Source: Phycisphaerales bacterium
GTDB lineage: Bacteria; Planctomycetota; Phycisphaerae; Tepidisphaerales; Tepidisphaeraceae
Assembly (NCBI GenBank): GCA_020847545.1
Contig: JADLBV010000086.1
Span: forward strand, 1 to 46,669
Length of the DNA: 46,669 nt
Direction of reading: 5' to 3'
Position numbers and translations under genes: made by a program. Shown here piece after piece: positions 32,469 to 35,250 of this stretch. The notes beneath the pieces were generated by a model. It saw only the letters and a program-made list of their open reading frames with translations, was not told the origin of the DNA and made no database searches. Position 1 is the stretch's first letter, and each line of letters starts with the position of its first letter.

Positions 32469-32486
32469 GGTGGGCCAAGGCCCACC
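32469..32486. repeat. Palindromic repeat GGTGGGCC-AA-GGCCCACC
   Basis: A perfect 8-bp-arm inverted repeat lies in the 72-base gap between the aminotransferase and dehydrogenase genes. It looks like a dispersed intergenic palindrome rather than a terminator: no T-run follows and the genes appear co-transcribed. It may stabilise or process the message. Confidence 0.45.
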
Positions 32487-32500
32487 CTACAAAGGACCAT

Positions 32501-33643
32501 ATGAAAACGATTGGTTTTGGGATCATTGGCGGCGGGTTGATGGGGCGGGAATTCGCCTCGGCGGTTGCCCGCTGGGCGCATCTGCTCGATTTTGACGGCC
32601 GGCCGCAGATTGTGGCGTTGTGTGACAAAAACCCGGCGCTCTATCCGTGGTACAAGGACAATTTCCCCTCCATCGCGCAGATCACGGACGATTACAAGGC
32701 GATGCTGGCCAATCCGCAGGTGCAGGCGGTGTATGTCGCCGTGCCGCACAACCTGCACGAGGAGATTTATTGTGCCGTCATCAATGCCGGCAAACACTTG
32801 ATGGGCGAAAAACCCTTCGGCATCGATAAAAAAGCCAACGATGCGATCAACCGGTGCATCGCCGAACACCCCGATGTGCTGGTGCGCAGTTCATCGGAGT
32901 TTCCGTTTTTCCCCGCCATGCAGCGCATCGGGGAGATGATCGAGGCCAATGCGTTCGGCCAGATCATCGAAGCGCACGGCGGCTTTCTGCATTGCAGCGA
33001 TCTGGACCCCAACAAAACCATCAACTGGAAGCGCATGATCCAGTTCAACGGCGAATACGGTTGCATGGGAGACCTGGGGTTGCATGTGTGCCATGTCCCC
33101 TTCCGGGCCGGCTGGACGCCCAAAACCGTGCGGGCGGTCTTGTCCAAGATCGTCACCGAACGCCCCGATGGCAAGGGGGGCATGGCCCCCTGTCTGACCT
33201 GGGACAACGCGACGTTGTTGTGCGATGCGGTCAACCCGGCCGATGGGAAAAGCTTTCCCCTGACGCTGCGAACCCATCGCATCGCGCCGGGTCAGAAAAA
33301 CACCTGGTACAGCGAAATCTGGGGGACCAAAAAGTCGGCCCGCTGGTCTTCGCTAAACCCCAAGATTCTGGAAGTGATGGATTACACCGGCGGCGACCAG
33401 ACCTGGCAGCAGATCCAGACCGGCTACGAATCGGCGTTCAAGTCGATCACCGGCCCCAATTTTGAGTTCGGATTCTCCGACTCCATTCAGCAGATGTGGG
33501 CAGGGTTCATGTACGAACTGATCCACGGCAAGCCGCTGAAAAAATTCGCCGGCTGCGCCACCCCCGCCGAGGCGGCGCTCAGCCACCGCCTCTTTACGGC
33601 CTCCCTCAAAAGCCACAAGGAGTCGGCGACCGTGGCGGTGTAA
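32501..33643 (+). CDS. Gfo/Idh/MocA-family NAD(P)-dependent oxidoreductase
   Basis: A 380-residue soluble dehydrogenase. The Rossmann domain starts GFGIIGGGLMGREF, with AVPHNLHEEI and the family signature GEKPFGID. The C-terminal alpha/beta domain has GCMGDLGLHVCHVP, which carries the catalytic D-x3-H. Members oxidise or reduce sugars, inositols and related ketones. Upstream in-frame starts are rejected because AAAGGA precedes the ATG at 32501 and the protein then begins at the Rossmann strand. It probably works with the aminotransferase upstream on a keto/amino carbohydrate. A MITE insertion starts at its stop codon without changing the protein. Confidence 0.9.
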   Translation: MKTIGFGIIGGGLMGREFASAVARWAHLLDFDGRPQIVALCDKNPALYPWYKDNFPSIAQITDDYKAMLANPQVQAVYVAVPHNLHEEIYCAVINAGKHLMGEKPFGIDKKANDAINRCIAEHPDVLVRSSSEFPFFPAMQRIGEMIEANAFGQIIEAHGGFLHCSDLDPNKTINWKRMIQFNGEYGCMGDLGLHVCHVPFRAGWTPKTVRAVLSKIVTERPDGKGGMAPCLTWDNATLLCDAVNPADGKSFPLTLRTHRIAPGQKNTWYSEIWGTKKSARWSSLNPKILEVMDYTGGDQTWQQIQTGYESAFKSITGPNFEFGFSDSIQQMWAGFMYELIHGKPLKKFAGCATPAEAALSHRLFTASLKSHKESATVAV

Positions 33644-33648
33644 AAGCC
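33641..33648. repeat. Target-site duplication of the MITE (left copy), includes stop codon
   Basis: TAAAAGCC here is repeated at 35188-35195 on the other side of the MITE. The first three bases are the dehydrogenase stop codon, so the stop codon was duplicated. The matching bases extend into the element ends, so the size could be 8 or 9. Confidence 0.85.
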
Positions 33649-33698
33649 CCAGGGCAATCGCATTTGTATTTTCTCCCTCCCCCGGTATTTCCGGGGGA

Positions 33699-33709
33699 GG
33701 GCTGGGGAG
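33699..33709. repeat. 11-bp target-site duplication of the IS (left copy)
   Basis: GGGCTGGGGAG at 33699-33709 is repeated exactly at 35049-35059, bordering the IS on both sides. A duplication of 10-13 bp is the usual size for the IS4 family. Confidence 0.9.
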
Positions 33710-35048
33710 CTTGCGCGTGTAGGTTTTTTGGAGGGGGGTGGCGGACACGCGGGCGAAACCACATCATGAACGTTGTTGAACAAGGACGTTCAGATGAAAG
33801 GAGTCGCCTCACGTGCCACCGGCGGCATTATCGGCATGGAATGCCGAGCTTGCCAGCGTCTGGCCCGAGCTATCGGTGCCCCAGATCAGGATGCTGGCGC
33901 AGTATTCAATGGGAATGGTTTTGGCGGAAAGCAGCGGGCTGTGTCGCGTGGCCTTCTGCCTGAGTCAATGGCTGGAACAAGGGTATCACGCGGTCCGTGA
34001 GCGTTTGCGCGACTTCTACTGCGGCCAGCAGGACAAGTCTGGCCGCAAACGCTGTGGACTGGGGGTGGAGGGCTGTTTCCCGGGCCTCCTGGCCTGGGTG
34101 CTTCGTCGCTGGGGCGGCAAGGAACTGGCCATCGCCATCGATGCCACGACCTTGAGGCAGAGATTCACCGTTCTGGTCATCAGTGTGGTCATTGCCGGCA
34201 CGGCCATTCCCGTGGCATGGAAGATCCTTCGCGCCGATGCCAAGGGTTCATGGAAAGGGCATTGGGTTCGGCTGCTGCGGAACTTCGCTGGGATCGTGCC
34301 ACCGCAGATGAAGGTGATCGTGCTGGCGGATCGCGGCCTGTATGCCAAGTGGCTCTTCCAATGCATCGCGGAACAGGGCTGGCATCCCTATCTCCGCATC
34401 AATCCCACCGTTGGGGAGTTCAAGCCCGCGGAGGCGGCCGACTATCGCTCGCTGCAAACGCTGCTGGGCAAACCAGAAGAGCATTATGCAGGAACCGGCA
34501 CGCTGTATCGCGGCCAAACAGCCCAACTCGCCTGCACGCTGCTGGCATGCTGGTCAAAGGGCTGTGCCGAGCCGTGGATCATTGCCACGGACCTGCCCCC
34601 GGAACATGCCAATGCGACCTGGTACGGCCTGCGGAACTGGATCGAGCGGGGGTTCAAGCATGACAAGACTGGCGGCATACGCTGGAACAACACCCGGATG
34701 GACGATCCCCATCGGGCATCGGTTCTCTGGCTGGTGATGGCGATCTCCCGGCACTTGAGCATTCTGGGCGGGGCGGAGTTCCATCCGTCGGCGGCTTCGC
34801 CCCCGGAGCCGCTGGTGCCCAATGGGGCCGCTCCGCAGCAGCGGCCACGCAATCCGCTACTCACCGGTAAGACGCCACGGCCCGTACTGAGCGTGTTCGT
34901 CACCGGACTGCTGGCCGTCCGGATGGCGATGCTCTGCGGCCGGCTGCCCATAGCCCAAGTCCTCAGGCCCGCCGCTTGGCCCGACCGCCCACCCAACCAT
35001 CTCAGCCGCACGGCTCTTGTCCCTCCGTAAAAAACCTACACGCGCAAG
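33710..35048 (+). mobile_element. Complete IS4-family insertion sequence, 1339 bp
   Basis: Perfect 20-bp terminal inverted repeats (33710-33729 and 35029-35048, CTTGCGCGTGTAGGTTTTTT) bound one transposase gene. Eleven-bp direct repeats flank it. Intact ends, intact gene and exact duplication point to a recent and perhaps still active element. It landed inside the MITE between that element's two hairpins. Confidence 0.93.
33813..35030 (+). CDS. IS4-family DDE transposase
   Basis: A 405-residue transposase. The first catalytic Asp lies in LAIAIDATTL, the second in KVIVLADRGLYAKWLF, and the Glu in YGLRNWIERGFKHDK, which fits the IS4 Y-x2-R-x3-E-x6-K signature exactly. The start is GTG at 33813 with AAGGAG about 10 bases upstream; other frames there are not coding. 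The C-terminus is Pro/Arg-rich and ends within 18 bases of the IS edge. It moves the surrounding IS by cut-and-paste chemistry. Confidence 0.92.
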   Translation: MPPAALSAWNAELASVWPELSVPQIRMLAQYSMGMVLAESSGLCRVAFCLSQWLEQGYHAVRERLRDFYCGQQDKSGRKRCGLGVEGCFPGLLAWVLRRWGGKELAIAIDATTLRQRFTVLVISVVIAGTAIPVAWKILRADAKGSWKGHWVRLLRNFAGIVPPQMKVIVLADRGLYAKWLFQCIAEQGWHPYLRINPTVGEFKPAEAADYRSLQTLLGKPEEHYAGTGTLYRGQTAQLACTLLACWSKGCAEPWIIATDLPPEHANATWYGLRNWIERGFKHDKTGGIRWNNTRMDDPHRASVLWLVMAISRHLSILGGAEFHPSAASPPEPLVPNGAAPQQRPRNPLLTGKTPRPVLSVFVTGLLAVRMAMLCGRLPIAQVLRPAAWPDRPPNHLSRTALVPP

Positions 35049-35219
35049 GGGCTGGGGAGGGGGTCCATTTCGGCAAATTTGAGGGAAACCCCCACCCTTA
35101 CCCTCCCCCGGCGTACCGGGGGAGGGGATAAAGAGGCTCAGCCTGTGTCATGGATGCCGTAAAAAAATACAAATGCGTTTGCCCTGGTAAAAGCCCCGTT
35201 TCGACCCTTGCAAGACCTC

Positions 35220-35250
35220 AAAAGGCATCCGGATTTTCCGGATGCCTTTT
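35220..35250 (+). terminator. Rho-independent terminator of the DeoR-aminotransferase-dehydrogenase operon
   Basis: A 14-bp perfect stem (35220-35233 with 35237-35250, loop TTT) ends in a run of five T. In the ancestral sequence it would lie about 25 bases after the dehydrogenase stop; the MITE and IS now push it about 1.5 kb away. Confidence 0.88.

Follow-up and report, generated by a model that had tools for sequence, protein, structure and literature searches.

The closest described relatives of the elements considered here belong to two families of insertion sequences (IS). Published IS4-family transposases have a catalytic spacing of D(60-110)D(100-150)E, and the IS10 and IS50 subgroups of that family have CT/CW ends but direct repeats (DR) of 8 to 9 bp (PMC2266710). 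Another IS4-family element, ISRm22, inserts into REP elements (PMC1525189). The ISAs1 elements of Frankia have as their hallmarks inverted repeats that start with CAGGG and a 10-bp DR (PMC11946415). We analyzed a 46,669-nucleotide stretch of DNA (the window) from a Phycisphaerales bacterium, in which a MITE lies at the end of a dehydrogenase gene and is itself interrupted by an IS (Table 1). We are highly confident that the locus reflects two ordinary DDE-transposase insertions, one nested in the other: an ISAs1-type MITE across the stop codon and then an IS4-family IS inside the MITE.

Table 1. Features of the nested insertion in the window and related MITE copies elsewhere
Feature	Position	Strand	Evidence or duplication
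Gfo/Idh/MocA-type dehydrogenase gene	32501..33643	+	TAA stop 33641-33643; Pfam match and sister orthologue
Left 10-bp duplication copy GTAAAAGCCC	33640..33649	+	Exact repeat at 35187-35196; 10-bp duplications at other MITE copies
MITE left part, first G+C-rich hairpin	33650..33709	+	Inverted-repeat ends, paralogues
Left 11-bp IS duplication GGGCTGGGGAG, MITE sequence	33699..33709	+	Present once and unbroken in MITE paralogues
Complete IS4-family insertion sequence, 1,339 bp	33710..35048	+	20-bp perfect inverted repeats CTTGCGCGTGTAGGTTTTTT
Transposase, 405 aa, intact	33813..35030	+	NCBIfam IS4_2; Pfam DDE_Tnp_1; alignment
Right 11-bp IS duplication GGGCTGGGGAG	35049..35059	+	Exact match to left copy
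MITE right part, second hairpin and right terminal inverted repeat	35060..35186	+	Inverted-repeat ends, paralogues
Right 10-bp duplication copy GTAAAAGCCC	35187..35196	+	Exact match to left copy
Terminator-like hairpin of dehydrogenase operon	35220..35250	+	Fold -22.7 kcal/mol, T-run
Related-genome ISAs1-type MITEs (L199, L200)	G013:C1 4232428-4232549, 4598754-4598875
Related-genome ISAs1-type MITEs (L210, L211)	G008:C162, C17
Related-genome ISAs1-type MITE (L197)	G033:C32
Related-genome ISAs1-type MITE (L198)	G042:C625
Stop-duplicating MITE copy, sulfatase gene			Duplication CCCCTGATCG
Stop-duplicating MITE copy, enolase-superfamily gene		reverse	Duplication AATGGGATCA
Stop-duplicating MITE copy, 266-aa ORF without Pfam match	C21/C112 junction	reverse	Duplication TCAAAAACCA

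The dehydrogenase product matches Pfam PF01408 (GFO_IDH_MocA; E = 8.7e-14), and the last codons of its gene are GTG TAA. The left copy of GTAAAAGCCC is made up of the final base of the Val codon, the TAA stop, and AAGCCC, and between it and the right copy lie 1,537 bp of inserted DNA whose ends are inverted. As the initial annotation had proposed, the end of the protein is unchanged by the insertion; the reading frame still stops at the duplicated TAA. The outer direct repeat described there is exact and does span this TAA, but its length was given as 8 bp (TAAAAGCC, with CCAGGG ends). From the stop-codon copy alone that reading is possible, because the extra C and G flanking CAGGG...CCCTG also pair; comparison of MITE copies, which share the ends CAGGGC...GCCCTG, rules it out. 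Among 31 pairs of ends from this and related genomes, a set that includes a few spurious pairings, the duplication fit best at 10 bp in 19, at 9 bp in 5, and at 8 bp in none; the true duplication is therefore GTAAAAGCCC, and the limits of the feature change from 33641-35195 to 33640-35196. Exact 10-bp duplications among these pairs include GGCAGGCCAA, CCCCATCACC, TAAAAACAAA, ATGATCCTGA, and AATGGGATCA, and four more pair contig ends that are broken at MITE copies. Since the probability of a shared 10-mer at a given pair of positions in this window is ~3e-6, the nested duplications are not due to chance.

Two other observations concern the dehydrogenase gene. Its 3' end (33478-33494) and the Shine-Dalgarno region of the transposase gene (33790-33806) show 82% complementarity across 17 nt, probably by chance. 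An inverted repeat (...GGTGGGCCAAGGCCCACCCTAC...) lies at 32470-32490, between the aminotransferase and dehydrogenase genes, and the sister species has a similar pair between the corresponding genes.

When the 1,339-bp IS and one copy of the 11-bp duplication are removed, a MITE of 187 bp is left. Its terminal inverted repeats (33650-33672 and 35164-35186), which differ by one mismatch in 23, start with CAGGG (CAGGGCAATCGCATTT... and its complement). The element is short, non-coding, and multicopy: a search of the bacterium's own 3.75-Mb genome for both elements found the MITE at ~50 sites and the IS only once. The inverted-repeat ends, the flanking direct repeat, and this copy number bear out the identification of a MITE at the dehydrogenase stop codon. 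A search of Rfam gave no match. Neither of its hairpins is followed by a T-run, and we therefore rejected them as intrinsic terminators. In other phyla, two sequences (L155 and L156) match exactly over 21 bases; no transposase is seen among the listed ORFs of their contigs, and the matches look like chance.

The parentage of the MITE can be read from a complete genome of the same class (G041). It carries nine elements of ~1.53 kb with ISAs1-type ends CAGGGCAATCGCAT, three of which are L194 to L196; the autonomous elements measure 1,528 to 1,530 bp. The first 14 bp of the full elements are identical to those of the MITE, and the duplication size is the same, with exact 10-bp duplications in two of the three elements inspected. 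One element, when translated, encodes an intact ISAs1-family transposase (NF033564; 405 bits against a cut-off of 70). Judged from sequence, the MITE is of the ISAs1 type, because the elements that share its ends and duplication size encode a transposase of this family. We looked for an intact ISAs1 transposase or parent in the bacterium's own assembly and did not find one; only degenerate ISAs1 remnants were found there, and an end with the sequence CGGTTGCCCTG comes after one of these. Related genomes have ISAs1-type MITEs of their own, 101 to 144 bp long, with the same ends and different interiors, as if such MITEs had arisen repeatedly.

The element inside the MITE is, as first described, a complete IS4-family IS flanked by an exact 11-bp duplication. 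Its transposase gene has a GTG start preceded by a Shine-Dalgarno-like AAAGGAG and is co-oriented with the operon. The transposase matches NCBIfam IS4_2 (NF033591) with an E value of 2.6e-28 and 99.1 bits, which is below the curated cut-off of 152, a threshold that NCBI uses for naming and not a structural hallmark of the IS4 family; the match to Pfam DDE_Tnp_1 (PF01609) is just above cut-off. In an alignment of six transposases, D110, D173, and E278 are invariant, giving a D(62)D(104)E spacing within the published IS4 range, and so are Y271-R274-E278-K285, which form the motif Y(2)R(3)E(6)K. The 11-bp duplication, about one helix turn, is found here and in five relatives of the IS. Paralogues of the MITE on contigs C2, C55, C33, C146, and C69 contain the GGGCTGGGGAG target once, uninterrupted. 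Relatives of the IS occur on Methylomagnum, Nostoc, and Stanieria plasmids, and broken relatives occur in members of the same class. Searches found no match to the transposase in the PDB, no match to the IS in E. coli, no encoded relative in IMG/VR, and no further close relatives in a wider sample of the phylum.

In the sister species (G001), the dehydrogenase orthologue is 95% identical at the protein level and ends at the same codon. The same regulator gene follows after a gap of ~240 bp that contains neither MITE nor IS, and the IS is absent from this species. The insert is thus missing from the sister genome, but a single copy of GTAAAAGCCC is not visible there because the intergenic sequence is too diverged. 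The initial annotation had placed the natural terminator beyond the insert, and a terminator-like hairpin is indeed located there; the insert displaces it from ~29 to ~1,577 nt after the stop. This hairpin is missing from the output of a terminator scan, which probably scored the T-run as part of the stem since it pairs with an A-run. The sister species has its own T-run hairpin shortly after the stop, different in sequence. If termination has been lost at its former position, the operon transcript would read through ~1.5 kb of mobile DNA and into the transposase gene.

Given the place of the insertion, one might suppose that the MITE specifically targets stop codons. Stop codons of adjacent ORFs were likewise duplicated at three further sites among the ~50 whose flanks are readable, which brings the total to four, a fraction that is approximate since ORFs at MITE sites were called crudely (longest ORF). 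The duplications have no obvious motif in common, however, and most copies lie elsewhere, before genes, after genes, or inside some ORFs. A few percent of stop duplications would be expected if insertions survive mainly outside coding sequence, and we consider a dedicated stop-codon-targeting element very improbable. We also weighed whether misassembly at a repeat produced the MITE-IS-MITE arrangement. Many contigs of the draft genome do end within MITE copies, the window itself beginning with one (positions 1-127), but a false join would not leave both nested junctions flanked by matching duplications of 10 and 11 bp, and synteny of the flanks with the sister species holds across the insert; we regard an artefact as extremely unlikely.

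The remaining alternative concerns where the two insertions took place. The IS certainly inserted after the MITE had formed, so this part of the order of events first reported stands; that both events occurred at the stop-codon locus, the MITE first and the IS second, is the simplest reading. The IS could instead have entered a MITE elsewhere, and the 1,537-bp composite could then have moved to the stop codon as a unit through an ISAs1 transposase. With both MITE ends retained, the composite comes close in size to the autonomous ISAs1 elements of G041, but the assembly contains no second copy of the IS and hence no second composite, and we think this route improbable. Under the preferred reading of two successive insertions at this locus, an ISAs1 transposase acting in trans would have made a staggered cut of 10 bp spanning the dehydrogenase stop codon and inserted the MITE into it. 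Through gap repair, GTAAAAGCCC would have come to lie on both sides, with the frame still ending at TAA, and the terminator would have been pushed outward. The IS would have entered the G-rich centre of the MITE later, with an 11-bp stagger, at a site that may have been set by a preference for G-runs.

The draft assembly is fragmented because contigs break within copies of the MITE family. Contigs that end exactly within the MITE, often with 120 to 128 bases of it, include C21, C40, C55, C71, C112, C121, C131, C133, and others. Matching 10-bp duplications suggest the joins C21/C112, C96/C133, C118/C131, and C125/C95.

Nine target sites or left flanks of the IS and its relatives were compared, of which L158, L159, and L215 could contribute a left flank only. 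GGGG was present on the transposase strand in seven of them, versus 1 to 5% of local 11-mers. The comparison is exploratory, the motif having been noticed after four sites had been seen; it held in three of the five sites examined afterwards (chance probability, ~7e-5). Because relatives of the IS tend to sit at G-runs, the G-rich centre of the MITE was a likely target. We tentatively suggest, as a possibility somewhat short of an even chance, that the IS represents a little-described IS4-family subgroup (Methylomagnum, Nostoc, Stanieria, and members of the same class) that prefers G-runs on the transposase strand and uses G-rich hairpin MITEs as landing pads. If so, a G-rich hairpin MITE would serve another mobile element as a safe site.

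Nested mobile DNA of this sort is ordinary, and both elements belong to known kinds. To the initial annotation the analysis adds the ISAs1 parentage of the MITE, the number of its copies, and the recurrent duplication of stop codons. The locus is a clean, ordered example of mobile DNA tolerated at gene ends, in which the frame is restored automatically because the duplicated target includes the stop codon. There is also a hint that G-rich extragenic repeats are favoured by some IS4-family elements. Neither observation upsets what is already known. The MITE matches ISAs1-family ISs and derived MITEs in its ends (CAGGGCAAWCGCAT) and 10-bp duplications; it differs from the ISs in being non-coding and 187 bp long, with two G+C-rich hairpins and no intact parent in the assembly. 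The IS resembles the IS4 family (PMC2266710) in its DDE spacing, YREK motif, single ORF, and duplication of about one helix turn, whereas its 5'-CTT ends and 11-bp DR exactly match none of the seven subgroups (PMC2266710, Table 1). Like ISRm22, it is an IS4-family element that landed in a palindromic extragenic repeat; the difference is that here a single copy lies in a MITE, and its relatives tend to sit at G-runs.
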